Positions 4,292 to 51,137 of a stretch of DNA of 51,137 nt are shown here, piece by piece. The notes below the pieces were generated by a model, which did not search any database, had not been told where the DNA came from, and worked only from the letters and a program-made list of their open reading frames with translations. The DNA lies in NCBI GenBank assembly GCA_937860145.1, contig CALMBF010000004.1, forward strand, positions 1 through 51,137, given 5' to 3'. This stretch comes from an uncultured Geobacter sp. Its GTDB lineage: Bacteria > Desulfobacterota > Desulfuromonadia > Geobacterales > DSM-12255. The position numbers and the translations under genes are program-made. How positions within the stretch are numbered: position 1 is the stretch's first letter; each line of letters starts with the position of its first letter.

Positions 4292-4786
4292 ATGGTTGAT
4301 ATGGCAGAAAACAATCGTGCAGTAATCAAGCTGAGGGAGCGCTTTGCGGCCGACATCGTCGAAGTGAAGGAGTTCCGCGGCGAAGTCACCGTGACCGTTA
4401 CGAAGAACAATATAGTCGAGATCTGTAACTATCTGAAGACGGCCCTCGGCTACAACCTCCTGACGGACGTTACCGCTGTCGATTATCTTGGCAAGTCACC
4501 GCGCTTTCAGGTGGTTTACAACATGTACTCCATCCCCTCCAAGGACAGGCTGCGGGTCAAGGCCCAGGTAGAAGAGGCGGATGCGACCATCGACAGCGTG
4601 TCCGGGGTGTGGTCATCGGCCAACTGGCTGGAGAGAGAGACGTACGACCTCTTCGGGATCACTTTTGCCGGCCATCCCGACCTGCGGCGTATCCTGATGA
4701 CCGACGACTGGGTCGGCCATCCGCTGCGCAAGGACTACCCGCTCCAGGGGCCCGACAGGGAGCCTTACAAGGGGCGGCTCTCCTAG
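4292..4786 (+). CDS. nuoC: NADH-quinone oxidoreductase subunit C
   Basis: NuoC (30-kDa subunit) is a 164-residue peripheral-arm protein that packs against NuoD near the quinone site. The family signature region WLERETYDLFGI (around residues 112-123) and the C-terminal HPLRKDYPL are intact. It is separate from nuoD, unlike the fused NuoCD of enterobacteria. Two starts are possible, ATG at 4292 or ATG at 4301 (MAENNRA). A purine-rich AAGGAAGAGG run serves either, and the choice changes only three residues. Confidence 0.95.
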   Translation: MVDMAENNRAVIKLRERFAADIVEVKEFRGEVTVTVTKNNIVEICNYLKTALGYNLLTDVTAVDYLGKSPRFQVVYNMYSIPSKDRLRVKAQVEEADATIDSVSGVWSSANWLERETYDLFGITFAGHPDLRRILMTDDWVGHPLRKDYPLQGPDREPYKGRLS

Positions 4787-4839
4787 GCAATCATTCTATT
4801 CACTAATCGTATTCAACACTCTGCAGGGGTGATAAATCA

Positions 4840-6012: not shown

Positions 6013-6037
6013 AACCGCTGTAAAGGAGACGGAGTTC

Positions 6038-6562
6038 ATGAGTAACGCTCCCGCAGAAAAAGCAACAACTGAAGAGAATGCTCCTGAAGAGGTAATCGAC
6101 CTTACAGCAGCGAACGAGGTTATAGACAAATATCTAACCCTCCCCGGCAATCTCATGCCGGTACTCCAGGGTATTCAGGATGAGTACGGGTACGTTCCCA
6201 AGCCGGCCATCGACTTGGTCGCCGAGCGACTTAACGTCTACCCGAGCCAGATTTTCGGCGTACTGACATTTTATGCCCAGTTCCACCTCAAACCCCGTGG
6301 ACGCTACATCATCAGGGTCTGCGTCGGAACTGCCTGCCACGTTCAGGGTGCTACGAGGATAGTTGATACCTTCTTCGACAAGCTTGGTATCGGTCATGCC
6401 GAAACGACACCGGACCTTCGCTATACCTTCGAAAAGGTCGCCTGTCTCGGCGCCTGCGGTATGGCTCCTCTGGCAATGGTCAACGATGACACCTTCGGCA
6501 AGATGACGGTTCAGAAAGTTGACGAAATAGTCGCTGAGTACAACCAGCGGCCGATGAAATAG
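6038..6562 (+). CDS. nuoE: NADH-quinone oxidoreductase subunit E
   Basis: NuoE is the 24-kDa subunit with the N1a [2Fe-2S] cluster in a thioredoxin-like fold, next to FMN in NuoF. Cluster ligands are Cys95 and Cys100 (CVGTAC) and Cys136 and Cys140 (CLGAC). The frame is open upstream into nuoD, but the ATG at 6038 (MSNAPAEK) follows AAGGAG at 6023-6028 and GGAG at 6031-6034, giving a normal 174-residue protein. The first 25 residues form an acidic, low-complexity tail that is not part of the fold. Confidence 0.96.
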   Translation: MSNAPAEKATTEENAPEEVIDLTAANEVIDKYLTLPGNLMPVLQGIQDEYGYVPKPAIDLVAERLNVYPSQIFGVLTFYAQFHLKPRGRYIIRVCVGTACHVQGATRIVDTFFDKLGIGHAETTPDLRYTFEKVACLGACGMAPLAMVNDDTFGKMTVQKVDEIVAEYNQRPMK

Positions 6563-10889: not shown

Positions 10890-10928
10890 ACAGCCGTACA
10901 AACTTCTTGAAGAGGAGAAGAAACTAGC

Positions 10929-11975
10929 ATGGAAATAATGGGACTGCCGCTCATATACTACGGAGCCATGATTCTCAAGGTACTACTGGCGTTCGTGTTT
11001 GTCCTCCTGACCGTGGCCTACGCAACGTATGCCGAGAGAAAGATAATCGGTCACATGCAGGTACGGATCGGTCCCAACCGGACCGGCCCCATGGGACTTC
11101 TCCAACCGATTGCCGACGGCATCAAGCTCTTCTTCAAAGAAGAGATCATTCCTGCGCAAGCGAGCAAATTTGCCTTCGTACTTGCTCCGCTGGTTGCCCT
11201 TATCCCGGCCTTCATCTCTTTCGCCGTCATCCCCTTCGGTGACACCTTCGAGATCGCAGGGTACAAGGTTCCGCTGCAGATAGCAGCCTATGCCGACCAG
11301 GCCGGCAAGGTTTTCGACCTCAACATCGGTGTGCTCTACATCCTGGCGATGGCGTCCCTCGGTGTGTATGGTATCGTGCTCGCCGGCTGGTCCTCGAACA
11401 GCAAGTACTCGCTGCTCGGCGGTCTGCGTGCCTCCGCCCAGATGATTTCCTACGAACTGGCTGCCGGCCTGGCGATAGTCTGCGTGTTCATGGTCTCCGA
11501 GTCGCTCTCCCTGCAGCAGATTGTCTCTGATCAGGGCGGCCTGTTCGGCTGGTACATCTTCCGCACGCCCTTTACCTTCGTTGCCGGCATTATCTTCTTC
11601 ATCTGCTCCCTCGCAGAAATCAACCGGACCCCCTTTGACCTCCCCGAGGCGGAGACGGAGCTCGTATCGGGTTTCTGTACCGAGTACTCAAGCATGAAGT
11701 ACGCCATGTTCTTTATGGCGGAATACGCCAACATGGTTACAGTCTGCGCTGTTACCACCACCCTGTTCCTGGGCGGATGGCACGGCCCGCTGCCCCCGGT
11801 CCTCAATTTCATCGCCAAGGTCTATATCCTGATGTTCGTCTGCATGTGGGTGCGTGCCACCTATCCTCGCTACCGGTACGACCAGTTGATGAAGCTCGGC
11901 TGGAAGGTGTTCCTGCCGACGACCCTCTTCCTGATCGTTGGCAACGCATTCTGGATTACACTGTTTCAGAAGTAA
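10929..11975 (+). CDS. nuoH: NADH-quinone oxidoreductase subunit H
   Basis: NuoH (ND1) is the 348-residue membrane subunit that forms the quinone entry channel and the heel of complex I. It has about eight hydrophobic helices. The conserved TYAERKIIGHMQVRIGPNR stretch spans roughly residues 33-51. The cytosolic loop EINRTPFDLPEAETELV (around residues 230-246) carries the acidic residues that couple quinone chemistry to proton pumping. A GAGGAGAAG precedes the ATG. Confidence 0.97.
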   Translation: MEIMGLPLIYYGAMILKVLLAFVFVLLTVAYATYAERKIIGHMQVRIGPNRTGPMGLLQPIADGIKLFFKEEIIPAQASKFAFVLAPLVALIPAFISFAVIPFGDTFEIAGYKVPLQIAAYADQAGKVFDLNIGVLYILAMASLGVYGIVLAGWSSNSKYSLLGGLRASAQMISYELAAGLAIVCVFMVSESLSLQQIVSDQGGLFGWYIFRTPFTFVAGIIFFICSLAEINRTPFDLPEAETELVSGFCTEYSSMKYAMFFMAEYANMVTVCAVTTTLFLGGWHGPLPPVLNFIAKVYILMFVCMWVRATYPRYRYDQLMKLGWKVFLPTTLFLIVGNAFWITLFQK

Positions 11976-12024
11976 TTATACAAGTATATCACCTACTGAC
12001 TGAATCCGTAGAGAGGATACGCAA

Positions 12025-12423
12025 ATGATAGCACCCCTTATCAAAGGTCTGCAAATAACGCTGAAGCACCTTTTCAAGAAACCGATAACTCTCATGTATC
12101 CTGAAGAGAAACCGGTCGTGGCCCCGAATTTCCGTGGTCTGCACACTCTCAAGGTGTCCCACGACAAGGCGAAATGCGTTGCCTGTTACCTCTGCCCGAC
12201 CGTCTGCCCCGCAAAGTGCATCACCGTCGAGGCAGGTGAGGATGCGAAGCACGATAAGTTTGCCGCCAAATATGAAATCGATCTGCTGCGCTGCATTTTC
12301 TGCGGCTACTGCGTGGAAGCCTGCCCGGTCGATGCCCTGGGGATGACCCAGACATTCGAACTCGCCAATTACAAACGTTCGGATTTCGTCTTTACCAAAG
12401 AACGTCTGTTAGAAAAGAAATAA
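12025..12423 (+). CDS. nuoI: NADH-quinone oxidoreductase subunit I
   Basis: NuoI carries the N6a and N6b [4Fe-4S] clusters that feed N2. Two canonical ferredoxin motifs are present, CVACYLCPTVCP near residue 50 and CIFCGYCVEACP near residue 90. At 132 residues it is at the short end of the family, lacking the longer C-terminal tail of some homologues, but all eight ligands are present. It sits in its usual place between nuoH and nuoJ. Confidence 0.96.
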   Translation: MIAPLIKGLQITLKHLFKKPITLMYPEEKPVVAPNFRGLHTLKVSHDKAKCVACYLCPTVCPAKCITVEAGEDAKHDKFAAKYEIDLLRCIFCGYCVEACPVDALGMTQTFELANYKRSDFVFTKERLLEKK

Positions 12424-12433
12424 AGGAGCAGCA

Positions 12434-12937
12434 ATGGAAACCTTGTTTTTCAGCATCGTGGCCGCAGTCGCCATCCTGATGAGCATCCTGGTTATCAGGT
12501 GCAAAAACCCGATCAACAGCGCCCTCTCCTTGATCATGACATTCTTCTGTCTTGCGACTCTGTATGTCATGCTCGAAGCACCGTTCATGGCTGCCATTCA
12601 GGTCATCGTGTACGCCGGCGCCATCATGGTCCTGATCGTTTTCGTCATCATGCTGCTCAATATACGCACCGAGTCCGGGCGCAGAACGCAGCATGCCCTT
12701 TTCCTCGGCGCAGCAACAGGGCTCTTCCTTCTTTTCCAGACATGGTATCTCCTGAGCAGAAGTTCACTCACCGGGACGAAGGGGCCGATCGATTCTGCTG
12801 CACTTGCACGGTTCGGTCATACCGAACTGATCGGTCAGTCGCTCTTCACTGAATTCCTGCTGCCGTTCGAGATCACCTCCATACTGCTTCTCGTAGCAAT
12901 TGTGGGTGCAGTTGTGCTTGCCAAGAAAAAACTGTAA
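12434..12937 (+). CDS. nuoJ: NADH-quinone oxidoreductase subunit J
   Basis: NuoJ (ND6) is a 167-residue membrane subunit with five hydrophobic helices. The third helix region VIVYAGAIMVLIVFVIML includes the family signature and the pi-bulge segment that rotates during the catalytic cycle. An AAAGGAG Shine-Dalgarno lies close before the ATG, only 10 bp after the nuoI stop. Confidence 0.96.
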   Translation: METLFFSIVAAVAILMSILVIRCKNPINSALSLIMTFFCLATLYVMLEAPFMAAIQVIVYAGAIMVLIVFVIMLLNIRTESGRRTQHALFLGAATGLFLLFQTWYLLSRSSLTGTKGPIDSAALARFGHTELIGQSLFTEFLLPFEITSILLLVAIVGAVVLAKKKL

Positions 12938-12955
12938 GAGTCAGGAGATATAACC

Positions 12956-13258
12956 ATGGTTTCCCTTCACAGCTATCTGATACTGAGCGCAATCCTCTTC
13001 TCCATCGGAACGATCGGTGTACTGACGCGGCGTAACGCGATAGTCATCTTCATGTGTATCGAAATGATGCTCAATGCGGTGAACCTCACGTTTATCGCCT
13101 TCTCCAAGTTCCTGGGTAACCTGGACGGCCAGATTTTCGTCTTCTTCGTCATGACTGTCGCCGCCGCGGAAGCTGCTGTCGGTCTGGCTCTCATGATCGC
13201 CTTCTTCAAGAATCGCGAGTCCATCGACGTAGAAGACCTGAACCTGATGAAGTGGTAG
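12956..13258 (+). CDS. nuoK: NADH-quinone oxidoreductase subunit K
   Basis: NuoK (ND4L) is a 100-residue three-helix membrane subunit of complex I. Its second helix has the conserved glutamate in [12 protein letters not shown] (around residue 36), and the third helix has [16 protein letters not shown] with the second key glutamate. Both belong to the first proton-transfer path. It has an AGGAG Shine-Dalgarno and lies 18 bp after nuoJ. Confidence 0.97.
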
Positions 13259-13303
13259 TCAGGTACTGCTGCACAACGAATCATTTCACTCAAGGAGTCT
13301 GGA

Positions 13304-15298
13304 ATGCTTGACAATGTTTGGCTCATACCACTGTTCCCCCTGATCGGTTTCCTGATCAACGGCTTTTTCGGCAAGAAGATCAAGAATGAGGCGGTAATCG
13401 GCGGGATCGGCACACTGATGATCTTCTGCTCGTTCCTCGTATCGTGCGGAATACTGATGCAGCTCATCGGTCTCCCCGCGGAACAGCGTGTATTCGAGAA
13501 GGTAATATTCCCGTGGATCCATGCGGGTAACTTCAAGGCGGACATGGCATTTCTGGTCGATCCCCTTTCGGCTGTCATGATCATGGTCGTTACCGGTGTC
13601 GGTACGTTGATCCACCTCTACTCCATCGGTTACATGCATGGGGAGGAAGGCTTCTACCGTTTCTTCGCCTATCTGAACCTCTTCTGCATGTCCATGCTCC
13701 TCCTCGTTCTCGGCGCCAACATGCTGGTCATGTTCATCGGTTGGGAGGGTGTCGGTCTCTGTTCCTACCTCCTCATCGGCTACTACTTCGAGAAGAAATC
13801 CGCCGGCGACGCTGCAAAGAAAGCATTCGTCATGAACAGGGTCGGTGACTTCGGCTTCCTTATCGGCCTCTTCACGCTCTTCTGGTGGCTCGGGAGCAAC
13901 CACAACATCTGGACCATCAACTTCATGGAGATCAAGGCCGCTTCCCACTTTCTCCCCTACGGTGGCGTGGTCACCGTGGCGACCCTCTGCTTCTTCCTCG
14001 GTGCAACCGGTAAGTCGGCTCAGATACCCCTCTACACCTGGTTGCCTGACGCCATGGAAGGCCCGACCCCCGTTTCCGCCCTCATCCACGCTGCAACCAT
14101 GGTTACCGCCGGTGTCTACATGATCGGCCGGATGAGCTTCGTCTTTATCAAGGCCCCGGAGACCATGCTCGTCGTTGCCGTGGTCGGTGCAGCTACCGCG
14201 ATTTTCGCTGCCACCATCGGTACGGCACAGAATGACATCAAGCGGGTACTTGCTTACTCGACCGTCTCCCAGCTCGGTTTCATGTTCCTTGCCATGGGGG
14301 TCGGTGCCTTCGGTGCCGGCATCTTCCACCTCATGACCCACGCATTCTTCAAGGCCTGTCTCTTCCTCGGGTCGGGATCCGTTATTCACGCCATGCACCA
14401 TGCCCTGCACCACGGCCATCTGCACGATGACCCCCAGGATATGCGCAACATGGGTGGTCTGAAGAAGTACATGCCGATAACATTCCTGACGTTCCTCGTT
14501 TCTACTATCGCCATTGCCGGTATCCCGGGTTTCTCGGGCTTCTTCTCCAAGGACGAAATCCTCTGGCAGGCATTCGCCAACCCCTACCACGGCAGCGTCA
14601 ATATCGTTCTCTGGGGGATTGGTTGCATCGCCGCCCTGTTTACCGCTTTCTACATGTTCCGTCTCGTGTTCATGACGTTCTTTGGCGAATGCCGCATCAA
14701 TCCGAAGGTTAAGGACCACCTCCATGAGTCTCCCCTTGTCATTACCATCCCCCTCATGGTTCTCGGTTTCCTTGCAGTCTTTGGCGGTTATTTGGGTATG
14801 CCCAAACTCATGGGAATGCTTCCCAACTACCTCGAACACTGGCTCGACCCGGTCTTCGAACTCGCCAACGAGTATGGCAAGCAGTACGCCCATACCGGTG
14901 CCCACCACTCCCATGCCCTCGAATGGGGCCTCATGGGTGGGTCGGTCGTGATTGCGGTAATCGGTATCACCATAGCCTTCACCCTGTACATGGCGAACAA
15001 GTCGCTCCCCGAGAAATTTACCACCGCGTTCCCCGCACTTCACCGTGCCGTGTTCAACAAGTGGTACATCGACGAGCTCTACGACTTCCTGTTCGTCAAT
15101 CCGTGCAAATCCCTCGGCAATCTCCTTTGGAAAGGGTTTGACGTTGTCATCGTTGACGGGATCGTCAACGGGGTGGCCAAGCTGGTGATGGCATTTTCCG
15201 CCGGTCTCAAGGGGCTGCAGTCCGGTTATGTTCACAATTACGCAATGGGCATGACCCTTGGCGTTGTTGTCATTATCGCATTCTACGTATTCCGTTAA
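13304..15298 (+). CDS. nuoL: NADH-quinone oxidoreductase subunit L
   Basis: NuoL (ND5) is the distal antiporter-like proton-pumping subunit. The 664-residue protein has about 14-16 transmembrane helices, the conserved FIGWEGVGLCSYLLIG segment, TWLPDAMEGPTPVSALIHA with the channel residues, and a long C-terminal lateral helix with a terminal anchor. The histidine-rich loop HAMHHALHHGHLHDD (around residues 363-378) is typical of NuoL. An AAGGAG precedes the ATG at 13304. Confidence 0.97.
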   Translation: MLDNVWLIPLFPLIGFLINGFFGKKIKNEAVIGGIGTLMIFCSFLVSCGILMQLIGLPAEQRVFEKVIFPWIHAGNFKADMAFLVDPLSAVMIMVVTGVGTLIHLYSIGYMHGEEGFYRFFAYLNLFCMSMLLLVLGANMLVMFIGWEGVGLCSYLLIGYYFEKKSAGDAAKKAFVMNRVGDFGFLIGLFTLFWWLGSNHNIWTINFMEIKAASHFLPYGGVVTVATLCFFLGATGKSAQIPLYTWLPDAMEGPTPVSALIHAATMVTAGVYMIGRMSFVFIKAPETMLVVAVVGAATAIFAATIGTAQNDIKRVLAYSTVSQLGFMFLAMGVGAFGAGIFHLMTHAFFKACLFLGSGSVIHAMHHALHHGHLHDDPQDMRNMGGLKKYMPITFLTFLVSTIAIAGIPGFSGFFSKDEILWQAFANPYHGSVNIVLWGIGCIAALFTAFYMFRLVFMTFFGECRINPKVKDHLHESPLVITIPLMVLGFLAVFGGYLGMPKLMGMLPNYLEHWLDPVFELANEYGKQYAHTGAHHSHALEWGLMGGSVVIAVIGITIAFTLYMANKSLPEKFTTAFPALHRAVFNKWYIDELYDFLFVNPCKSLGNLLWKGFDVVIVDGIVNGVAKLVMAFSAGLKGLQSGYVHNYAMGMTLGVVVIIAFYVFR

Positions 15299-15336
15299 TA
15301 GACTTTGACTGTTGAGTTCATAAAGGAGCAGATTCA

Positions 15337-16929
15337 ATGAACGAAGTTATCCTGAGCCTGATAACCTTTCTACCGCTGCTGGGTGTTTTCCTGCTGCTGT
15401 TCATCCCCAAGGAGAATCACGGCCTTTTGAGAGGGTTTACTCTTGCGGTGACACTGGTGACATTTGTCCTGTCACTGCCGCTGGTCTCCGGGTTCGTCAC
15501 GAATGCCGACTACCAGTTCGTCCAGAATATTCCCTGGATACAGGCCGGCCCCTTCAAGATGAACTACCACGTCGGTATTGACGGCATCAGCCTCTGGCTG
15601 GTCATGCTGACGACCTTCATCATGCCGATTGCCGTCCTTTCCACCTGGACGGCGGTCGAGGAGAAGGTGAAAGGGTACATGGCGTGTCTGCTCCTGCTCC
15701 AGGTGGGGATGATCGGTGCATTCATCTCCCTCGACCTTTTCCTCTTCTACATCTTCTGGGAAGTCATGCTGATCCCGATGTATTTCATTATCGGCATCTG
15801 GGGCGGCAAGAACAGGATCTACGCCGCAGTCAAGTTCTTCATCTACACCATGGTCGGTTCGCTCCTCATGCTTGTGGCTATCATCGCCCTGTACTTCAAG
15901 GGGCTGAATGCCGGCGCCACCGATTTCAGCCTCATGAATTTCTTCTCCCTGAATCTAGACCCTGTAACCCAGACATGGATGTTCCTGGCATTCGCCCTTG
16001 CCTTTGCCATCAAGGTTCCCATGTTCCCGCTGCACACCTGGTTGCCTGATGCCCACACCGAAGCACCCACTGCGGGCTCCGTCATCCTTGCCGCCGTTCT
16101 GCTCAAGATGGGTACCTACGGTTATGTCCGCTTTGCCATGCCGCTCTTCCCGAACGCCGTGGCACAGTTCACCCCCCTCATTGCCACCCTCTCCGTTATC
16201 GGCGTCATCTACGCCTCACTGGTAGCCATGGTGCAGGAAGATGTGAAGAAACTGGTTGCCTACTCGTCGGTCGCTCACCTAGGCTTCGTCATGCTGGGTG
16301 TCTTCGCTCTCAACCAGATGGGCCTACAGGGCGGCATGCTGCAGATGCTCAACCACGGTGTTTCCACCGGCGCACTCTTCCTTATCGTCGGTTTCATCTA
16401 TGAACGTCGCCATACTCGTCTGATTACCGATTTCGGCGGTCTTGCCAAGCAGATGCCTGTCTTTGCCACTATCTTCATGATCGTCACCTTCTCGTCCATC
16501 GGTCTGCCGGGCACGAATGGTTTTGTCGGCGAATTCCTCGTCCTCATCGGTGCATTCGAGAGTTCCCTCCGCTGGTGGGCGATCGTGGCTTCCAGTGGCG
16601 TCATCCTCTCCGCGGTATACATGCTCTGGATGTTCCAGAGGGTGATGTTCGGCAAACTCGACAATCCGAAGAACCAGAAACTGCAGGACCTGAACGGTCG
16701 CGAGATCGCCACCATGGTTCCGCTCATCTTCCTGATCTTCTTCATGGGGCTGTATCCCGCACCCTTTACCTCGACCATGGCCCCGGCACTGGACAAGGTA
16801 ATCAAACAGAGCAGGATTCAACCTGCCACCGCAGCAGCGCAGCCCGTAGCGGTGCCGGTACTCCCCGGTGCGCCTGCAGTTGCCCCTGAAGGGGGCCCTG
16901 CCGGCCATCCTGCTGTTGAACCGAAATAG
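15337..16929 (+). CDS. nuoM: NADH-quinone oxidoreductase subunit M
   Basis: NuoM (ND4) is the second antiporter-like proton-pumping subunit. The 530-residue protein has 14 hydrophobic helices, the FYIFWEVMLIPMYFIIG segment with the key glutamate, and TWLPDAHTEAPTAGSVILA. The last 40 or so residues form an Ala/Pro/Val-rich tail beyond the final helix, which is unusual in length and probably disordered. An AAAGGAG Shine-Dalgarno precedes the ATG. Confidence 0.97.
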   Translation: MNEVILSLITFLPLLGVFLLLFIPKENHGLLRGFTLAVTLVTFVLSLPLVSGFVTNADYQFVQNIPWIQAGPFKMNYHVGIDGISLWLVMLTTFIMPIAVLSTWTAVEEKVKGYMACLLLLQVGMIGAFISLDLFLFYIFWEVMLIPMYFIIGIWGGKNRIYAAVKFFIYTMVGSLLMLVAIIALYFKGLNAGATDFSLMNFFSLNLDPVTQTWMFLAFALAFAIKVPMFPLHTWLPDAHTEAPTAGSVILAAVLLKMGTYGYVRFAMPLFPNAVAQFTPLIATLSVIGVIYASLVAMVQEDVKKLVAYSSVAHLGFVMLGVFALNQMGLQGGMLQMLNHGVSTGALFLIVGFIYERRHTRLITDFGGLAKQMPVFATIFMIVTFSSIGLPGTNGFVGEFLVLIGAFESSLRWWAIVASSGVILSAVYMLWMFQRVMFGKLDNPKNQKLQDLNGREIATMVPLIFLIFFMGLYPAPFTSTMAPALDKVIKQSRIQPATAAAQPVAVPVLPGAPAVAPEGGPAGHPAVEPK

Positions 16930-42213: not shown

Positions 42214-42603
42214 CTAAACTATTAATATATCTATATCTAGTCCCGCATGTATCTTGTTAACCATGCTAATTACCTCTTTTGAAAAGTTAAGAACTGGATT
42301 GTCATCACCTTCAATAGAACAATTAAACACTAGTTCGCAATCACCGCATATGCTTAATATATTGTTTAAGATTGGTTCTAGTCTGGTAAATATATTTGTA
42401 ATGTGATCATCAAGAGTATTATCATCAGATAGCTTAGATAATATAAACCATGCATGCCTATCAAATTTAATTATATCTGATCTTGTTGATCTTGGCATCC
42501 CCTTGACCCAACATTTGTCATATGTTATTCCTAACATATTATTTAATTCTTTAGCTGAATATTTATCAGAATATATTCCTAGTTTTGCATAGTATTGATT
42601 CAT
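42214..42603 (-). CDS. DUF4279-like protein, probable immunity protein to the RHS toxin
   Basis: This 129-residue protein starts YYAKLGIYSDKYSAKELNN and has a late NPVLNFSKEVISMV and acidic LDIDILIV end, the pattern of DUF4279, a family found next to polymorphic toxins. It lies 6 bp after the RHS stop, and its GAGG ribosome site overlaps the end of the toxin gene, as expected for toxin-immunity pairs. It is cytoplasmic (no signal) and very AT-rich. The immunity role is inferred from position and family. Confidence 0.75.
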   Translation of the reverse strand: MNQYYAKLGIYSDKYSAKELNNMLGITYDKCWVKGMPRSTRSDIIKFDRHAWFILSKLSDDNTLDDHITNIFTRLEPILNNILSICGDCELVFNCSIEGDDNPVLNFSKEVISMVNKIHAGLDIDILIV

Positions 42604-42609
42604 ACATCC

Positions 42610-45600
42610 TCACATATAATCATTAATATTTAAACCTGTTGGTTCGCCTGAACCTTTGCCACCTTTAATAAATTGATAAATTTCGCCTGCCTTATTTTTA
42701 TATAAATCGTATTTTGAAGCATTACTTCCGCCCTTTATTGCATGTATATCTTCATTGGCTGATTTAAGCATTTTTATTTCTCCTTTTGAGAGCAACCTCA
42801 TTTCGTTTGCAGTCTGCACAGTTTGGGCAGCGCATTTTGCGCCTTTAATTGCTTTAACTGAAGCAATCGGAAGAAAACTTTCTAAAGATCGCTGAAATAC
42901 TTCCGGATCAAGGCGAGAAACATTTTCAGATTGTAACTTTCTTAATAAGTCACTATAGGGAGAAAGTCCAAACGGATCGACAAAGCTTACTGGATTGTCG
43001 CCTACATAACGATACAGGTTCGTATCCCCACCGCCAAATCCAAGCGGGTCCTTGCTGATGAAATTCCCGTCGAGAGGATCGCGATATCTCTCCCGGTAAT
43101 GATACAGGCCGGTTTCAGCGTCCCATTCCCTGCCGGTGTAGGTGTAGCTGTTGCGAAACAACGTTGACGGTTTCAACATGCCGTGGGAATCGTAGTCGTA
43201 GCTCTGGACGACGGTCTTGTTGGCGTCGCTGATTTTAACGATGCTCCCCAAGTTGTCAGCGTGGAAGTAGTACCATACTCCGTCACGTTCCATGGCGAGG
43301 GGTTCGTCGATGCCGGGACCGTGGATGTAATTGGTGGTGCTGCTGGTGGTGCCGGTGGAACTGGACTTGGTGTAAATCTCCTGGATTATGTCTTCACGGT
43401 CGTAAATGTAGGTATAGGTCTCGGTGCTGGTTCTGCCACTGACCGTGTTGACGAAGTTCTTTTCGATTCTTCTTCCGAAGGGGTCGTATTTGAAGGTGAC
43501 GGTTCTCTTGTCCGTACCTTGCGAGGTTACTTTGCTCCGTTCCACCTTGACCAGCCGGTTATTAAAGTCAAAAGTGCGCACTTCAGATTTATCATTTGCC
43601 GTTGCAAGGGTTCTGGTCGCCTGGTTGCCGATGTTGTCATAGCCGAAGCGGAATTCACGACCCGTGTCGATCTGGTTGGCAGCAGTGGGAATATACCCGG
43701 TGTCCTGTTGCCCCGGTCCCTTGGTGCGGTTGCCCACATCATCGTATGTGAATTCCTCGTAACTACTGGTGCCAAAGGCATAGTGCAGCCGGTAGTAATC
43801 GTCATACATGTAGGTAACTGGTTTTACCCCGAGCCGTGCCAAGCAGTTGCCTGCAGCGTCGAACTGGTTGCATACGTATGTTGATTCCGACCCGCTGCCA
43901 TTCAAGTTCACCTGGCTGATACTGGTGGTCCGGTCCAGATCGTCGTACTGGTACCAGGTTTCCGTACCGTTGGGGTATATCAACCGAGACCGTCTGCCGT
44001 AGGTGTCATAACGGAAGCCAAACCCTCTGTCAGGATCGCCGGTGCCTCGTCCCTTGGCGGTGATGCCATAGAGTCGGTTGGCGCTGTCGGGGGTGTAGAC
44101 GACAACTCGCTGATTCGGAGAACCGGACAGCAGCGTTACCTGTTTGAGTTGACCGATGCCGCTGTACTGGTCATAGGTGATGACGTTTCCCTTAGAATCG
44201 GTAACGCTTTTCAGCCAGTTGTTATCGTAGTACGTGAACGTATAGCTGATATTATTATTGACGGCGGTTTGCATCCGTCCATTGGCGTCATAGATGTAGG
44301 TATCGAAACCGCCGCCGTAGTAGCTGACACTCTTGGTCCGGCCTTCCTTGTCGTAGCCGTAGGTAGCAAGCACAACTTCTGGGGTTGCCGAGGCGTCGAT
44401 CATCTCTTTCAACTTATTGTTTGGGTGGTAGGTATAGCGGATGATTTTCCCTAGTGGGTCTATCTCCCGCTCAAGATTGCCCTTATTGTCGAAAAGGTAG
44501 GTAGTGGTCTGTTGTTTGGCGTCTTTAACCGTACCCAGGCGGGTCGTGCCACTGTCCCGGCAGGTGGCGCAGCCGGTACCCACGTAGTCGAAGGTGGACT
44601 TGTTGGTCTCGGTCCGGGATACTTCCTTGAGGTTTCCTTCAAAGGTGTATTTGTAGCTGACAGTGCGACCGGCGCTATCGATGGAGGAAGCCAGCCGGTT
44701 GTTGTGGTCATAGGTGTAGTTGACCGTTTCGGCGACCATGGTATTTGATGAGGTGGTTTTGCTCTTGACGCTGTTCAGGGCGGTGTAGGTATAAACAACG
44801 GTTTTGACGCCGCCAGTTGCGCCGGTAGTTGTGGTTTTCTTGATGTTGCCGTTGTTGTCATACTCCTCAATCTTGTAGAGAATATTGTCCGGCCCCTTAA
44901 CGGACTGAAGCAGGCCGTTAGAGTAATAAGTGTATGCTGTTGTCTTCAGTGTAGCGTCATAAATAGAGTTGATGCTGCCGTCGCTGTTGTAGATATAATC
45001 CGTTTCGTACAGTTCGGGGTCGAGGTAGTTGTCAGCTTTCAGCGAGGTGTTCGGCCAGGGCATGTCCCGGTAGATGTATGTCGTTAAGGAAACAGAACCC
45101 CGGTAGTCCGTGATTTGGGTCACCCGGTCGTAGGAGTCGTAGAAATAGGTAATGTCATCGTATATCGGCACGGAATCGGCGTCCTGAACCGCTTCCGGGT
45201 CAATTGGGGGATTCATTTTCGTCAGGTCGGCGGGTACCGTTTCCCGCGTCAGGTTGCCGTAATCGTCATATTTGTAGAAAACGGTGTAGCGGTAGCCGTC
45301 GGAAGCCAGGTAGGTTTTTGATTTAATCAACCCGTCGGCGTAGTAGGTGTAGGACGTTTCCACGCCGCTGGGATCGTACCGCTTCTTGAGCGTCCGGTTG
45401 CTGCCGTCAATGAGGAAGGTCCAACTGCCGCTATCCTTCTCGGTTACCGTACCGGTATCTATGCCGCTTGCATTTACCGGATAGCTGTAGCTGCGGGTGT
45501 GGGCTGCTGGGTTCACCTGCCATTCCGGGTCCTTTACGGTTGATACCCGATTATTGCCGTCATAGCCGTATTCAAAAGTATGCCCTTCTGGGTCTTTCTT

Positions 45601-47406
45601 GGTCTTCAGAAGGCTATTTTCATAGGTGTACTCCCAGTATCCCCGTTCCGTGGTGACTGCTGGATCTGCAACAGGGTTTGTCACCCGCCAGAGACGGCCG
45701 TTGCCGTCATACTGGAAGTCGTACTGGTTAAGGTTGGGATCTTTCACCCAGCTGAGTTTGCCACCGCTGTACTCAAGAGTTGTGACCCTTCCCGCTGTGT
45801 CGGTGATACTGGTCAGGTTTCCGCTGGTATAGCCGTAACTGACCGTGTTCAGGAAACGGTCTTTGGTCTTCGTTATCTTTCCCAGATAGTCGAACTGTTC
45901 ACTCATGCCGTTGCGATACGTCACTGTATAGGTAGTGGCAGTGCCGCTGCCGCTTTTGACCAGAGAGGAGGAGTCCCCCAGTTGGGGCCGATAAGTGCCG
46001 TTACCGTTGGAGAGGTAACGACGTGCTCCGCCGTCACCGTCCTTTATTACTATCGAGCTGTCGGGATTGAAGGTCATCCGCACGTCGTAGTTATGCCGCC
46101 AGCCTATTCCGAGAACTCCCGAATCGGTGTCGAGGCTATTGTAGTAGAGGGAGATGGCCGTGGAGAGGGCTCTGCCTTTGGTGGTGAAGAGTTCCTGGCT
46201 GTGAGAGAGATTGCCGGTGAGAATATTAGTGTTGGAGCCGGAGGCAACTACCAGTGAATTGGTTTCGGCATCACAGGTGTCTGGCGCGTCCGAGGGGGGG
46301 AGTGGCTGGGCTGCGGCAGTGACATTCAGGGTTGCTGCATCACCGCAGCCAGGATATTGCACTGACAGGGTTACAGGATATGTTTTCTCACTGACGATTG
46401 CACCCAGACTGTTAAGACCGTTCCAGGTGGCATTGATGGTGTGTCCGGTACCGCTGAAAGTACGGTCAGCAACGGCTATGCTCCATGATATGGGGTTAGT
46501 CGTCCCTGTCGTATAGTCGCCCCCGAAAGTGACCTGTTCGCTTGCGTTGGGGTTAAAACGGGTTACCGACTGGGTAAAGCTTGTAATGTTTATGTCGCAG
46601 GTGTTTTCCACGGTAACGGAAAGGGTCCTGCTCGTCTGGCACTGTCCGGCGCTCTGTGCGGTCAAGGTCGCCGTATAGGTGCCGTTGGGAACGATATTTC
46701 CATTGATGTCTTTCCCGTCCCACGTTACTGATACTGTGCCGCCGCTGCCGTAGAAGGGCCGGCCTGCCACTGTCAGGGTCCAGGTAATGGGATTACTCGA
46801 ACCGTCGGAGATATTTCCACTGAAGTTGACCGTACCTCCGCCCACAGGAACGAAGGTGTCAACCGATTTTGTGAACGTATTGATGACGAGGTTGCAGAGG
46901 ATGTTATAACAGAGCGTGAGTGACCAACCGTTCAACACCGCTCCCTGATGGCAACTGGTGCAATCGTTGTAATCCGGTCCCCAGGCGTTCGGCGACTGGT
47001 ACAGGCTGTCGTGGTACATGGACATGCGCCATGTGCCGTTAACCGGTGAGTTGTTGAAGGCAAGGATATTGTTTGCCGTGTAGGAGTAGTTGGTGAGGAA
47101 TATTCCAGAGGAGTCGGTAAGAAAATTGAACCAATTAGTGCCGTTGTTCAGCCGGTTCAGGTTGAATACCAGAGTCGCACCGGGGTTTTTGGAATAGGTG
47201 GGGGTGACGCTGGCGCTGGCGACAACTGCGTTACTGGGATAGCCGGAAAAGGTGATATCCGAGTAAGCTGCTTGGCCAAGATAAAACATTGGGGAAGCAT
47301 AGTTGTTGGTGCCGGTTACGCAGACTGCACGAGCATCCAGGGGGAAAAACAGAAAAAGGCTGAGCCATGCTAACGCAGCTACCATGGGCTTAATAAAACA
47401 ATTCAT
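42610..47406 (-). CDS. RHS-repeat polymorphic toxin with N-terminal signal peptide
   Basis: This 1598-residue exported protein has a signal peptide (1-27), then a proprotein-convertase P-domain-like region holding CTSCH (149-153). Two FlgD-like Ig domains follow (about 172-390), then a DUF6531-type opening (GIGWRHNYDVRM) and a long RHS/YD-repeat shell. The RHS core ends in DPFGL (1477-1481). The last 117 residues are a toxin tip ending GEPTGLNINDYM, resembling polymorphic toxin type 33; that subtype is tentative. I start at the ATG at 47406, with AGGAG 9 bases before it; a longer frame would bury the signal peptide. The tip DNA is AT-richer than the shell. Confidence 0.88.
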   Translation of the reverse strand: MNCFIKPMVAALAWLSLFLFFPLDARAVCVTGTNNYASPMFYLGQAAYSDITFSGYPSNAVVASASVTPTYSKNPGATLVFNLNRLNNGTNWFNFLTDSSGIFLTNYSYTANNILAFNNSPVNGTWRMSMYHDSLYQSPNAWGPDYNDCTSCHQGAVLNGWSLTLCYNILCNLVINTFTKSVDTFVPVGGGTVNFSGNISDGSSNPITWTLTVAGRPFYGSGGTVSVTWDGKDINGNIVPNGTYTATLTAQSAGQCQTSRTLSVTVENTCDINITSFTQSVTRFNPNASEQVTFGGDYTTGTTNPISWSIAVADRTFSGTGHTINATWNGLNSLGAIVSEKTYPVTLSVQYPGCGDAATLNVTAAAQPLPPSDAPDTCDAETNSLVVASGSNTNILTGNLSHSQELFTTKGRALSTAISLYYNSLDTDSGVLGIGWRHNYDVRMTFNPDSSIVIKDGDGGARRYLSNGNGTYRPQLGDSSSLVKSGSGTATTYTVTYRNGMSEQFDYLGKITKTKDRFLNTVSYGYTSGNLTSITDTAGRVTTLEYSGGKLSWVKDPNLNQYDFQYDGNGRLWRVTNPVADPAVTTERGYWEYTYENSLLKTKKDPEGHTFEYGYDGNNRVSTVKDPEWQVNPAAHTRSYSYPVNASGIDTGTVTEKDSGSWTFLIDGSNRTLKKRYDPSGVETSYTYYADGLIKSKTYLASDGYRYTVFYKYDDYGNLTRETVPADLTKMNPPIDPEAVQDADSVPIYDDITYFYDSYDRVTQITDYRGSVSLTTYIYRDMPWPNTSLKADNYLDPELYETDYIYNSDGSINSIYDATLKTTAYTYYSNGLLQSVKGPDNILYKIEEYDNNGNIKKTTTTGATGGVKTVVYTYTALNSVKSKTTSSNTMVAETVNYTYDHNNRLASSIDSAGRTVSYKYTFEGNLKEVSRTETNKSTFDYVGTGCATCRDSGTTRLGTVKDAKQQTTTYLFDNKGNLEREIDPLGKIIRYTYHPNNKLKEMIDASATPEVVLATYGYDKEGRTKSVSYYGGGFDTYIYDANGRMQTAVNNNISYTFTYYDNNWLKSVTDSKGNVITYDQYSGIGQLKQVTLLSGSPNQRVVVYTPDSANRLYGITAKGRGTGDPDRGFGFRYDTYGRRSRLIYPNGTETWYQYDDLDRTTSISQVNLNGSGSESTYVCNQFDAAGNCLARLGVKPVTYMYDDYYRLHYAFGTSSYEEFTYDDVGNRTKGPGQQDTGYIPTAANQIDTGREFRFGYDNIGNQATRTLATANDKSEVRTFDFNNRLVKVERSKVTSQGTDKRTVTFKYDPFGRRIEKNFVNTVSGRTSTETYTYIYDREDIIQEIYTKSSSTGTTSSTTNYIHGPGIDEPLAMERDGVWYYFHADNLGSIVKISDANKTVVQSYDYDSHGMLKPSTLFRNSYTYTGREWDAETGLYHYRERYRDPLDGNFISKDPLGFGGGDTNLYRYVGDNPVSFVDPFGLSPYSDLLRKLQSENVSRLDPEVFQRSLESFLPIASVKAIKGAKCAAQTVQTANEMRLLSKGEIKMLKSANEDIHAIKGGSNASKYDLYKNKAGEIYQFIKGGKGSGEPTGLNINDYM

Positions 47407-47484
47407 TCGCGGCAACTCCTGGAGTACATCGAGATCACATTTAATAGCCAAAAGGGGCTCATTAGCGAATGTATCCTTACACAA

Positions 47485-47986
47485 GAATAATTATTATTCC
47501 ACAACAATTATAATGATTAATCGATAACCTCATCGAGGCTGCTTTTATGTAAAATTGGAGGGGGGGTGGGTTCACTATGTTTTAAAATGGAAGTCTGATA
47601 TCGGACGGAAGCTTCAACTATGGAGAGGCAATGGTGGCACGAGAGAAAGGCAACCACTCGCTACCACACGCTAGATTGGCGTGAAATGTAGAATTATTAG
47701 TGGAAAAGTGGACACGTGAATGTAATGGGAATTTGCACTCACTACCGACATAATGTCATAACGAATCAGTATGCTGGGGATTTGTATTGAGTAGTAAGAT
47801 TTGTCGCGACCACCCAGGGTTGGCCCTGTCGAACTTGTGGAAACTTATGTCGGAATTGGTTGGGATCAGTTACAGGCTAAAAGCCGTGTGCTTTACGGCC
47901 ATCTGCTTTTCGCCGGTCAGTTTGGCGAGGTTGTCAGTGAATGTGCCTGCAATACGGAATTCCATGGAAGAACCGAGAGTAATAGA
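47485..47986. other. Gene-free stretch upstream of the RHS gene
   Basis: About 500 bp with no supported gene. Two overlapping plus-strand frames near 47787-48146 lack ribosome sites and run antisense into the next gene. A 90-base part near 47815-47960 is GC-richer than its surroundings and may be a decayed mobile-element fragment. No terminal inverted repeats were found. Confidence 0.4.
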
Positions 47987-48820
47987 TTATTCATCCAAAA
48001 GGGGCTGTTGTGGATCAGCTCCCAAGCTAATGTGGTCCAATCTCCATTTTTTCAGGAACTGTGATTGGCTGTATGTCAGAGCATGTTGGGATATTACTTC
48101 AACATGTCGGAGCTCAATATATTGCCAGCCAGTCTGTGCATTATAAAGTTTTGCCTTGAATGCATTCTCTATTGCAGCCATCACATTATTTGCAGCGGTC
48201 TCCGCCATATTAAAATCTGGCTCAACAGTATGCAGTAGATAGATATCAAGCACATAAACGTCATCTGGGGTGGTACGGGCCACCTCTTGTCCTTCATCTA
48301 CATCGAAAAAAACAGCCGTTATCAAATCGCCATGTGGCTTAACTGCTTTGGCAATTTTAGCATTTAGCTTTGCATCTGATAGCCGACGTTCAAATTCATC
48401 AGGAAATGCAGACCTGCGATACCGTGAAGCAAGCCAAAGTTGAAAGACGGTGATATTAGACGGTAAAAGCCTTGTTCTGGACTCTGGCTCAAAATCTGCG
48501 AGTATATTTTTATCGATGCAGGTCTTATTTGTAGTGACAAATTCAGCCAGTAGCGGCTCATCACCTTCGAAACTTATATGGAGAGTTCGTGAAGATTTTG
48601 CGTGGGTATAGTTGCCGTCAATTTCCATTATTCTACGACCAATCACAACCTCCACTTGTGGTTCTCTGTCTGGGTGTTGTGTGAGGTCACAATCGTGAGT
48701 GGCAATAACAACTAATGTATCTGTCGGAAATTCAGTGTGCGCCAACCCTATTGCAGTTACAGCCTCTGCGGTCAAAAGATGTCCTTGTCGCCATGGCGTA
48801 TTTCTTGACCATCCCGGCAT
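47987..48820 (-). CDS. Unrecognised 277-residue protein, last gene of the TIGR04255/HTH operon
   Basis: I do not recognise the family. The N-terminal segment WRQGHLL and the motif VVIATHDCDLTQHP (around residues 37-50) with PQVEVVIGR look conserved and could be a metal or catalytic site (His-Asp-Cys-Asp). The rest is mixed alpha/beta and soluble, with no membrane segment. It starts 8 bp after the HTH gene with no clear ribosome site, so it probably depends on coupling. Its strict grouping with the next two genes suggests a joint function, perhaps defence. Confidence 0.7.
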   Translation of the reverse strand: MPGWSRNTPWRQGHLLTAEAVTAIGLAHTEFPTDTLVVIATHDCDLTQHPDREPQVEVVIGRRIMEIDGNYTHAKSSRTLHISFEGDEPLLAEFVTTNKTCIDKNILADFEPESRTRLLPSNITVFQLWLASRYRRSAFPDEFERRLSDAKLNAKIAKAVKPHGDLITAVFFDVDEGQEVARTTPDDVYVLDIYLLHTVEPDFNMAETAANNVMAAIENAFKAKLYNAQTGWQYIELRHVEVISQHALTYSQSQFLKKWRLDHISLGADPQQPLLDE

Positions 48821-48828
48821 GGCGACAG

Positions 48829-49473
48829 TTACACCACATCATTTGCTGCCATTATGTCGGAGTCGGCAGATGATTTTGATGTAGATCGGCCTGCAAATCT
48901 CGCGGAAAGTCGCTGTTTTTGTTCGGCCTCGCGTTTGAAAATTTGCGCGAGTAGCTGGGCAGCATCGGTTGCCGATCCCCCAGATTGTACAAACTCAAAG
49001 ATGTTTTTACCCTCGATAAGCTTACGCTTCAGCAGTATCCCACTAATTGGAATTCCTGCATCAGCGATTGTGTCAGCTGCAAGCGCAAGGTCTCGAAGCT
49101 TTGCAGTATGCTCTGGTGTAGGCTGTTCACCATTCAGCCAATTGTAGATTGTTTGGCGAGACACGTTAAAGGTTTTGCCAAGATCAGAAACTGCCAGTGA
49201 AAATATGGTTCTAATTCGCCCCAAATTCTCAGCTGAAGTCCTTAAGGGGGATGTTTCGACAGTGCAATCCTTAATCGGGTTTGAAATGGTCGAGTTGCCC
49301 GCCTGAAGTTTTCTCAATTGCCCCAAGTCGTCAGCAGAAGCACCAGTTCCTGACATTACAGCAAAGCTCAACAAACCAGCTGCAACTATTGATGCCACTC
49401 TGACTGAAGATGAGCCTGTCGATTCCTGTTGGTTTGCAAACCAGCTGCTGCTATTTGGATAGCCTGCATTCAT
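48829..49473 (-). CDS. Membrane-anchored helix-turn-helix protein
   Basis: The 214-residue protein has an N-terminal hydrophobic helix (residues 24-42, VRVASIVAAGLLSFAVM) and a linker. A helix-turn-helix domain follows (about 87-125), with the recognition helix in VSRQTIYNWLNGE, and then a helical C-terminus. AGGAG lies 8 bases before the ATG at 49473, so the hydrophobic start is genuinely translated. The HTH should face the cytoplasm if the helix is a membrane anchor. It likely reads the TTTACAC repeats upstream of the operon; that is inference. A cleaved signal peptide would be odd for a DNA-binding protein. Confidence 0.75.
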   Translation of the reverse strand: MNAGYPNSSSWFANQQESTGSSSVRVASIVAAGLLSFAVMSGTGASADDLGQLRKLQAGNSTISNPIKDCTVETSPLRTSAENLGRIRTIFSLAVSDLGKTFNVSRQTIYNWLNGEQPTPEHTAKLRDLALAADTIADAGIPISGILLKRKLIEGKNIFEFVQSGGSATDAAQLLAQIFKREAEQKQRLSARFAGRSTSKSSADSDIMAANDVV

Positions 49474-49486
49474 TGCTGATCTCCTA

Positions 49487-50281
49487 TTATTTCCAAGTTT
49501 CCAGTGCGAATGGGGTTATAGTTGCATTAAACGATTTTTCTATTTCGTCATGAAGTTCTATAAGCTTTGAACCGATTTGTTCTGATCGGAATGGTTCTCG
49601 CTTTTCAATGGAAGCATCAATGTCGATAATAGCATGAAGACCTGTCTGCTCTTCAAATTTGGGGTTGATTTTTGGGGCGAGCATCCCAACTTCTGGAGGT
49701 AACCCGACTCGGCCATTTTGAATGATAACCCTAGAAACTAATTGACCAACAGTGTTCAGTGTAACTGTTTCGCTGTATGCATGAACAAAATTGCCTTCCA
49801 GCTTATTGAAAAGCCCCCGGACTTCATTGTTCAGATAATCAGTAAGTGATTCTCCTGATTTAGGTAATACGGCATCAAAATATCGCAGTCCAATTCTTTC
49901 AACAAAGTCGAGATTTATTATGTCATGGACGATGGCTAAGCCATCAACCATTGCCTTAAAGAAGGTCTCTGATGTGTCGTATGCAGTTGTCTGTAGCGCA
50001 ATAGAGTTGTGCTCAAGAACAATTTCGGTTGTGCGTTCAATGTCACCAAATACACATCGAGCTCTAGGCACAAAGGAAGGATTTGGCGGCTGTCCGCCCT
50101 CTACTGGAGGTGCAAAAGGAAGGATTAGTTGCTGTATGTTTTCTCGCTTAAAATCAGGGAAATGATTTTTCCTCATCCTCTCTTGAATTGCAGGTAAGTA
50201 TCCTTCCATGTCGAGAATAGGGTTGAAGCGTACCTGAGCTACTGTGAAATAGACCGGTGCGTTCCTCATTTTTTTACCCAT
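49487..50281 (-). CDS. TIGR04255-like protein
   Basis: This 264-residue soluble protein fits the sporadically distributed TIGR04255 family. It has an early NAPVYFTVAQVRFNP, a central VERIGLRYFDAVLP, and a late segment on DIDAS followed by a helical FNATITPFALE end. The function is unknown in the literature I know. The frame is open to 50365, but the ATG at 50281 (MGKKMRNAP) has GGGGG 6 bases upstream. It is the first gene of a three-gene operon, 13 bp before the HTH gene, and lies just below a four-copy repeat operator. Confidence 0.75.
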   Translation of the reverse strand: MGKKMRNAPVYFTVAQVRFNPILDMEGYLPAIQERMRKNHFPDFKRENIQQLILPFAPPVEGGQPPNPSFVPRARCVFGDIERTTEIVLEHNSIALQTTAYDTSETFFKAMVDGLAIVHDIINLDFVERIGLRYFDAVLPKSGESLTDYLNNEVRGLFNKLEGNFVHAYSETVTLNTVGQLVSRVIIQNGRVGLPPEVGMLAPKINPKFEEQTGLHAIIDIDASIEKREPFRSEQIGSKLIELHDEIEKSFNATITPFALETWK

Positions 50282-50299
50282 GGCTGCCCCCTGCATTGG

Positions 50300-50337
50300 T
50301 TTACACTGTGATTTACACTTTACACTCAGGTTGACAC
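50300..50337. promoter_or_regulatory. Four-copy TTTACAC operator array upstream of the TIGR04255 operon
   Basis: TTTACAC occurs at 50300, 50312 and 50319, and the variant TTGACAC at 50331. The spacing is 12, 7 and 12, meaning two 19-bp units of the form TTTACAC-N5-TTTACAC. They overlap the candidate promoter, so they look like a repressor-binding array. Confidence 0.7.
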
Positions 50338-50345
50338 TATTGCAA
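50317..50345 (-). promoter_or_regulatory. Candidate promoter for the TIGR04255/HTH operon
   Basis: On the minus strand TTGCAA (50345-50340) and TAAAGT (50322-50317) are separated by 17 bases. The -10 is embedded in the TTTACAC repeat array. Confidence 0.5.
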
Positions 50346-50375
50346 GCATTGTATATAGAATTCATTTCAAGGGTT

Positions 50376-50397
50376 GAGAGGGAGATTTCTCCCCCTC
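50376..50397. terminator. Hairpin between the radical-SAM fragment and the TIGR04255 operon
   Basis: GAGAGGGAGA and TCTCCCCCTC form a 10-bp stem with one G-U pair, about 20 bases past the stop of the minus-strand fragment. There is no T-run, so it is a weak terminator candidate. Confidence 0.45.
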
Positions 50398-50418
50398 ATG
50401 TTGATCAGCTGACTAGAA

Positions 50419-51083
50419 TCAGAAATTCAGTTTGACCTTGGGCTTCTTTCGTGGAACTGGTTTGTCTTGCTCCTGCAACTCCTGTCCACTCTCATCCATA
50501 CCCGTAACAGGCGGTTCTTCCACAACTTTGTCGGAAGTTAGCGTGTCGTCACTTGCGATATCTGCTACTGATTCGTCGAGCAGTCGGCCTCTTTTAGCGC
50601 AAACTTCTTGGATTGAGTCCTTCCAGGCAATTTTAGGTAATCCGCCCAGTTGATTGACAAGTTCAATAATCTCGTCGTCAGTCTGTTGCTCAAGAATCAG
50701 CTTAGCATGACTGGCAATTGCTGGGTCTGGATCATCCTTCATCCCTCCAATCCGGTTCATTTTCCCGAACCAGATTTCCTTAGTTACATACGGTTCCAGC
50801 AGGTGGTAGAGCTTCACCGCCTCTTCCTTGCCACCCAACATCGGTTCAGCGCTGACGCTTGTTGCATAACCGTTCTCGAAGGCCAACTTCAGGCATTCAA
50901 ACCGTTCGCTGAAGGAAGGGGCTCCCGGCTCCCAATGCCCCATTACGGCTTCGTCGAGACCGCCTATCGTAAAACGAAAGAGCAATTGGTCTCGGAATGG
51001 TAACGCATCGGCACAGATTGCCTGGATAGATTCTCGGTGCGGTTTGCTGACAACCAAGACATTATTCCCTGTACTGAGTAAGT
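50419..51083 (-). pseudogene. 5'-truncated radical-SAM (photolyase-like) gene
   Basis: The open frame resembles the C-terminal two thirds of the SPL-type radical-SAM family. It has NVLVVSKPHRESI, a FRFTIGGLDEAVMGHWEPGAP segment, the SVSAEPML strand and a basic tail (PRKKPKVKLNF). The N-terminal part with the CxxxCxxC iron-sulfur motif is missing. The native reading begins around LLSTGNN, and the DNA before it matches an insertion-sequence end. The frame can still be read from a GTG inside that element, but the protein would lack its catalytic core. Confidence 0.7.
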
Positions 51084-51137
51084 TGTGAATCGGCATGCAA
51101 AAATGACCCACCTATAGCCTAAATCGGCGTCCAAATT
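51084..51137. mobile_element. End of a probable IS21-family insertion sequence (runs out of the window)
   Basis: From TGTGAATCGG at 51084 the sequence contains two related direct repeats, CGGCATGCAAAAATGACCC at 51091 and CGGCGTCCAAATT at 51125. Such spaced terminal repeats are the hallmark I recall for IS21-type elements. Only the end is present, so the transposase genes cannot be checked. It interrupts the radical-SAM gene. Confidence 0.6.

Follow-up and report, generated by a model that had tools for sequence, protein, structure and literature searches.

In a stretch of 51,137 nucleotides from an uncultured Geobacter sp. (contig CALMBF010000004.1 of GenBank assembly GCA_937860145.1, positions 1 to 51,137; the window), three adjoining minus-strand genes, here designated A, B, and C, had been singled out by an initial annotation as an operon and a candidate defense or stress system. 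All three open reading frames (ORFs) were present at the place claimed, with intergenic gaps of 13 and 8 bp. The explanation that we prefer, and to which we give about an even chance on the strength of sequence comparisons and structure predictions, is that this trio would be a mobile three-component, toxin-antitoxin-like anti-phage cassette with C as its presumed effector.

The initial annotation had made its proposal depend on the three genes being linked elsewhere, and this linkage proved to be very strong. The order A-B-C was kept in 60 of 63 records, which comprised the window, L001 to L004, and L006 to L063 and included some near-identical sequences (L005 is the window's own copy and was not counted twice). 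The three records without the full trio were L004 and L040, where a contig end cuts the cassette, and L061, which held part of C only. A, B, and C were inherited together: in 40 trios with less than 90% likeness in C (L014 was left out), the distance matrices correlated at r = 0.959 for A-B, 0.966 for A-C, and 0.955 for B-C, and none of 2000 Mantel permutations was as high for any pair. The part of C in L061, a contig of the viral collection (4698-5207), matched C residues 6-97 in pieces 39-47% identical; no A or B was found within the 11 kb examined, the piece stood amid structural genes by eye and may represent either a remnant or a decoy carried by a phage. A shortened C was seen near a contig end in L063, a 326-amino-acid ORF that appeared transposase-like by eye lay between B and C in L062 (4722-5702), and the deposited sequence of the Meiothermus C (L009, 6001-6807) is interrupted by an in-frame stop close to the start.

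Carriers of the trio included plasmids, P2-like and other prophages, and chromosomal contigs. A tblastn search with the window's C returned 8 plasmid records, and 10 in all were found with the C of L047 as query, which added two Vibrio plasmids. The full trio was found in the plasmid records examined, which covered 9 of the 10 (H5, from Gloeocapsopsis, was left out); their hosts were Klebsiella, Pseudomonas (two), Acinetobacter, Robbsia, Vibrio (two), Meiothermus, and Gloeocapsa. A profile search located C on 49 viral contigs. Presence was very sporadic. Among 277 genomes of the window's class, C was found in 2, and among 395 sampled genomes of its phylum in 1; each count includes the genome from which the window comes. 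A DNA match to the L047 trio was present in 19 of 5426 E. coli genomes, 18 of them over at least 80% of the trio. Eighteen of these 19 matches were at 99% or more, and diverged copies could be missed. This sporadic presence argues against chance carriage of an operon with a metabolic or other housekeeping role, a reading that nothing was found to favor and that we consider very improbable. In Pseudomonas gingeri (L001, 4255-7277), the cassette began about 350 bp after a gene that is glmS by eye, and the glmS side is the usual attachment side of Tn7. On a P. putida plasmid (L008, 9763-12861), genes for TniB, a Mu-type transposase, and TnsA lay downstream of the cassette. Tn7-like elements may carry the trio as cargo.

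The location of the trio supports a role in defense. We examined 4 of the 19 E. coli matches. Each lay in a P2-like prophage at the site bounded by P2 genes A and Q, where the trio follows the genes for the replication endonuclease and a DinI-like protein and is itself followed by the portal gene in convergent orientation. This site is described as an antiviral hotspot (PMC9122126), and it turned up again in a functional defense screen (PMC9519451). A convergent P2-type portal gene, 57-99% identical to the reference, was found 36-353 bp downstream of C in 27 of the 49 viral contigs; in the remaining 22, no portal gene was matched within the DNA examined. Portal genes this varied indicate that several phage lineages carry the trio at the P2 site. 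The site alone is no proof of defense, since around a fourth of P2-like phages are reported to have a putative plasmid partition system there (PMC9122126). The 27 P2-like contigs are also compatible with a prophage regulatory or superinfection-immunity cassette effective on related phages only; however, plasmids of unrelated bacteria, Meiothermus and Gloeocapsa among them, carried the same trio, as did chromosomal contigs, and we regard that alternative as improbable.

Defense genes were also neighbors of the trio at some loci. On the chromosomal contig L003, two ThsB TIR genes (E values of 6.4e-104 and 3.1e-66) stood some 350 bp away from the trio, and genes resembling TmtA and REase_III were found on its other side. 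Type I methylases were located 2.5-2.9 kb downstream of the trio in L009 and L012. Ten neighbor proteins had been chosen by eye as likely defense genes, of which 9 matched PADLOC models and one (L261, 5924-7129) did not, and these counts are no measure of enrichment. In L003, positions 4426-6252 and 9696-15534 formed a dense defense island around the trio.

Upstream of A, we found a new operator that is private to the trio. In the window, GTGTMAA half-sites were located at -56, -44, -37, and -25 from the start of A, a 12-7-12 array, and such half-sites were present upstream of A in most trio loci. TGTMA pairs at exactly 12 bp numbered 40 upstream of A compared to 0.03 expected from the rate elsewhere in the same loci, and the 12-bp pair was present in 34 of 39 loci, some of them closely related. 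Spacings of 7 bp (8 pairs), 19 bp (16 pairs), and 29 bp (4 pairs) were raised as well. The five loci without the pair were L014, which has almost no flank; L013, L059, and L062, in which a variant of the motif (GGGTAA or GTGTAA) could be made out by eye; and L022, whose copies have diverged. The 12-bp pair was absent from all 19 TIGR04255 loci in which this trio is lacking. Exact matches to TGTMAA-N6-TGTAAA in the 3.96 Mb host genome numbered two, both within the window's array (backward-read control, one). B likely reads this TGTMAA operator and acts on its own operon, as judged from the sequence. The single shared promoter of the initial annotation stays presumptive: a conserved operator array stands where it should be, but a sigma-70 scan gave no site directly upstream of A on the minus strand at the scan threshold.

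The initial annotation had called B a membrane-anchored helix-turn-helix protein. The helix-turn-helix part held at weak profile scores: the best Pfam match of the window's B was HTH_Tnp_IS630 (E value of 9e-4; 19.7 bits versus a cut-off of 21.3), and an E. coli homologue passed the HTH_3 cut-off (23.6 versus 23). The membrane anchor was judged from hydropathy. In a scan of 17-residue stretches with thresholds of 1.4 and 1.6 across the 40 trios, 33 B proteins reached 1.4 or more and 24 reached 1.6 or more; in the window's B, residues 24-40 (VRVASIVAAGLLSFAVM) had a mean Kyte-Doolittle value of 2.02. After many of these stretches comes G-T-G, and by eye those of the E. coli group precede a positively charged region. 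Such stretches could mean that B is a single-pass membrane helix-turn-helix regulator that would detect envelope damage during infection and switch on A and C. Against such a membrane sensor, the two exact host-genome copies of the operator both lie at this promoter, so that B would regulate its own operon only, and 7 of the 40 B proteins have the segment in weak form or not at all. We consider the membrane sensor doubtful, with clearly less than an even chance.

C was unrecognized, as the initial annotation had stated, with no Pfam, NCBIfam, or PADLOC match at E values up to 1. Searches of these collections and PDB with the single sequence, and searches with a profile, gave nothing useful, and PHROGs returned one unnamed family (phrog_34320, E value of 2e-5) plus one chance-level row. 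The H-D-C-D motif was confirmed in the sequence ATHDCDL, and no mention of it was found in the literature searched. In an alignment of 34 C sequences, C44 and D45 were each conserved in 34 of 34, D43 in 31, and H42 in 29; D45 directly followed the cysteine in all aligned C proteins except that of L062. An AlphaFold model built from 34 sequences had a predicted local distance difference test (pLDDT) score of 82.8 and a predicted template modeling (pTM) score of 0.59. Its top three Foldseek matches were a Klebsiella toxin-antitoxin complex, CcdB, and MazF (probability of 0.97-0.99). VIA-align, which re-aligns Foldseek-ranked entries only, listed 50 rows, all of them toxins of the MazF/CcdB/Kid kind and mostly aligned over residues 8-138; the best match had a Z of 9.1 with 100 aligned residues and a root-mean-square deviation of 2.9. 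Forty-one of the 50 listed rows were named MazF, CcdB, or Kid, and the other nine, titled toxin, interferase, endoribonuclease, MoxT, or YdcE, were presumed to be toxins of the MazF/CcdB kind and counted as such. Against viral models, 5 of the 50 listed rows were named PemK-like, amid unrelated rows. The N-terminal domain of C is therefore predicted to have a MazF/CcdB toxin fold, in which the H-D-C-D motif would follow strand 35-39 and precede strand 55-64 in the secondary-structure listing. C compares to MazF/PemK/Kid and CcdB toxins by this predicted fold; it differs in having no sequence-family match, in its H-D-C-D motif, and in a further part of 140 or so residues, at about 139-277.

A predicted toxin fold, an operator that looks autoregulatory, and relatives of C on 10 plasmid records and 49 viral contigs would also suit an addiction or stability module, that is, a toxin-antitoxin-like unit that keeps a plasmid or prophage in the cell and has no anti-phage role. 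The repeated placement at the P2 hotspot and the Thoeris neighbors on a chromosomal contig fit defense better, and we consider the addiction module rather unlikely.

A was confirmed as a TIGR04255 member (152.3 bits versus a curated cut-off of 30; E value of 1.9e-44) with the whole model covered, and, in agreement with the initial annotation, the NCBIfam description of the family names no function. Pfam gave no match for A at E values up to 1, and no mention of TIGR04255 was found in the literature searched (subscription papers, bioRxiv, and supplements lay outside the search). The AlphaFold model of A had a pLDDT of 90.3 and a duplicated alpha/beta arrangement. Its fold matches were guanidino kinases (Z up to 9.2), AdoMetDC (E value of 1.4e-4), and TBP; no kinship was read from these, as unlike proteins lay close together in Z. 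The matches reflect only a general arrangement in common in the model, and no function was drawn from them. SecB was not among the fold rows listed for the A model, and a Cas10 row (E value of 0.34) was dropped as chance.

Under the anti-phage reading, C would be the effector, stopping growth or translation once released. B would repress the operon through the TGTMAA repeats and would hold C inactive, and A would bind and stabilize B, probably through the hydrophobic N-terminal stretch of B. A may then sense infection: if A were lost or captured, B would fail and C would be freed. Should the hydrophobic stretch be a true membrane anchor, the same switch could operate at the membrane. The guard role of A is the least supported step of this mechanism.

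The closest case with a worked-out mechanism is CmdTAC, where capsid protein pulls the chaperone off, so that degradation of the antitoxin releases the toxin (PMC11618068). In toxin-antitoxin-chaperone (TAC) systems, the antitoxin has an aggregation-prone extension and depends on its chaperone (PMC6377645). The trio resembles CmdTAC in having three genes, including one for a toxin-like protein, and in a proposed chaperone-guarded logic carried out by different proteins. A further likeness is that several defense systems of the screen noted above sit in the P2 A-Q site (PMC9519451). In contrast, CmdT is an ADP-ribosyltransferase whereas C has a predicted MazF/CcdB fold, and the CmdTAC chaperone is SecB-like whereas A belongs to TIGR04255 and has an ambiguous predicted fold. 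The antitoxin extension of TAC systems resembles the role proposed for the hydrophobic stretch of B; however, the extension is C-terminal and the stretch in B is N-terminal. The PADLOC toxin models for PD-T4-9 (CmdTAC) did not match the C proteins of the window, E. coli, or Robbsia, with the PD-T4-9_A model present in the library.

TIGR04255 genes were also found in other cassettes. The family was present in 23 of the 277 genomes of the class, and 20 of these 23 loci were examined (the window, G195, and G192 were left out). One locus (L255) held the same trio. In L254, L258, L261, and L262, A was accompanied by a protein of 105-117 amino acids, hydrophobic near its start, and a protein of 200-213 amino acids with QGD ... 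(S/T)N(S/T)CD. In L257, L263, and L264, A was accompanied by a hydrophobic-start protein of 167-168 amino acids and a different protein of 129-139 amino acids, and L260 had the first and third genes of this type near a contig end. L272 had A with an SQECDL protein, and L256 and L259 had no such cassette. All 7 middle proteins measured in these sister cassettes had a hydrophobic 17-residue stretch near the start (1.52-1.81), and L254, L260, and L264 adjoined type I restriction genes. The sister cassettes suggest a constant part, A plus a hydrophobic-start middle protein, and a variable part, the effector-like gene. When C was compared by profile to the QGD...CD proteins, the alignment paired QG with QG and CD with CD. 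Tentatively, then, and with odds well below even, TIGR04255 may be the common sensor or guard of a modular defense class, in which it would recognize a partner switch protein, short-lived or membrane-tethered, by the hydrophobic N-terminus of that partner and through the partner control interchangeable effectors; this would be a new architecture and not a single system. Equally tentative is the assignment of effectors within it, which would be the MazF-fold H-D-C-D protein here and the QGD...CD and unrelated 129-139-amino-acid proteins in the sisters. The loci L265 to L271 and L273, from relatives in the same order, held a divergent TIGR04255 subfamily whose genes stand alone; it appears to be chromosomal, with neighbors that recur.

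Several results weigh against the anti-phage cassette as proposed. We collected at least 120 contigs by their flank pattern, of which 80 were used for a cluster count, 52 of these having the portal gene, and all 120 were scanned for the trio. The 52 complete flank-matched P2 hotspots contained 133 ORFs in 73 clusters, with matches to PADLOC models that included AriA, RT_II-A, RT_XIII, ShosT, PD-T7-1, and PD-T4-9_A. The trio was found in 0 of the 52 hotspots and in 1 of the 120 contigs (L227, which is the record of L051), and it is therefore a rare guest at the P2 hotspot. The Foldseek E values for C were just 0.017-0.026, with mixed rows from rank 4 on, and no Pfam match to the MazF or CcdB toxin families was found at E values up to 1 for the window's C or the E. 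coli C. The hydrophobic stretch falls below 1.4 in the 7 B proteins mentioned above. Nor is a value of 1.4 confined to B, being reached by 9 of the 40 A proteins and 12 of the 40 C proteins; one A and one C reach 1.6. The fold of A is ambiguous among guanidino kinases, AdoMetDC, and TBP, with no pointer to a chaperone. Eight of the 20 class loci (L265 to L271 and L273) were lone TIGR04255 genes, which indicates that the family has other roles, and the profile comparison tied C only weakly to the QGD...CD proteins (E value of 0.003, probability of 10.5%).

Within the scope searched, the trio has not been described before; newer defense catalogues, preprints, and supplements lay outside that scope. 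PADLOC 2.0.0 had no model for the window's trio (E values up to 1) or for two E. coli and the Robbsia trios (E values up to 10), except weak helix-turn-helix rows for B, and no mention of the six E. coli trio protein accessions was found in the literature searched. We take the PADLOC Hp1-Hp3 models to represent the P1-blocking three-gene system of the P2 hotspot (Rousset et al. 2022). Identity of the trio with this set was rejected, as no model matched nine homologue proteins (E values up to 10) or the window (E values up to 1). The two are alike in their P2 hotspot location and in having three genes without clear domains (PMC9122126); in contrast, each Hp model matches one other hotspot protein and the trio matches none. 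The claim of a defense system not yet described thus keeps its footing in the P2 hotspot, the plasmids, the Thoeris and restriction neighbors at some loci, and the lack of a fitting PADLOC model, whereas the setting from which it was first drawn, the RHS and antirestriction genes, is its weakest evidence, and an addiction role retains some probability. As for the TIGR04255 family, A is a clear member, and the difference lies in a family description without function. A family with no recorded role and a protein with no domain match are tied in one cassette, which provides a testable function for both, and the copies in ordinary P2-like E. coli prophages mean that function can be settled in K-12 with standard phages. 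The features of the trio are listed in Table 1.

Table 1. Positions of the trio, its parts, and its operator in the window
Feature	Position	Strand	Basis
Gene A, TIGR04255 family protein, 264 amino acids	49487-50281	-	NCBIfam match, structure, fold searches
Gene B, helix-turn-helix protein, 214 amino acids, presumed autorepressor/antitoxin-like	48829-49473	-	Weak helix-turn-helix matches; E. coli homologue over HTH_3 cut-off; 12-homologue alignment
Gene C, H-D-C-D protein, 277 amino acids, presumed effector	47987-48820	-	No Pfam/NCBIfam/PADLOC match; 34-sequence alignment; model
Operator, two tandem 12-bp-spaced TGTMAA pairs upstream of A	50300-50336	-	Upstream motif search; exact genome matches
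Hydrophobic segment of B, residues 24-40, then recurrent G-T-G motif	49354-49404	-	Hydropathy scan
Helix-turn-helix core of B, residues 96-120	49114-49188	-	Pfam matched stretches
Predicted MazF/Kid/CcdB-like domain of C, residues 8-138	48407-48799	-	Foldseek and VIA-align on model
H-D-C-D motif codons of C, residues 42-45	48686-48697	-	Sequence; alignment column counts

The start of gene A was set at the ATG that gives 264 amino acids and fits the homologues; an in-frame upstream ATG at 50365 would give 292 amino acids. No Rfam family was found in 47400-51137 at gathering scores. The island setting described by the initial annotation was borne out in part. The RHS gene (PF05593) and ArdC were confirmed, the latter being the only antirestriction gene confirmed, but no transposase was found among the 20 window ORFs scanned with Pfam, which are part of the window, and the insertion sequence element was not found among them. 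At the window's own site, no defense neighbor was found among the scanned genes, RadC alone giving weak PADLOC JAB rows. An ORF near the contig end (50419-51111) had a weak PHROG match (phrog_13321, E value of 3.5e-4) and no Pfam match. In the span 42214-47484, the RHS protein had a C-terminal Ntox33 domain, and the DUF4279 gene that comes after it could be its immunity gene.

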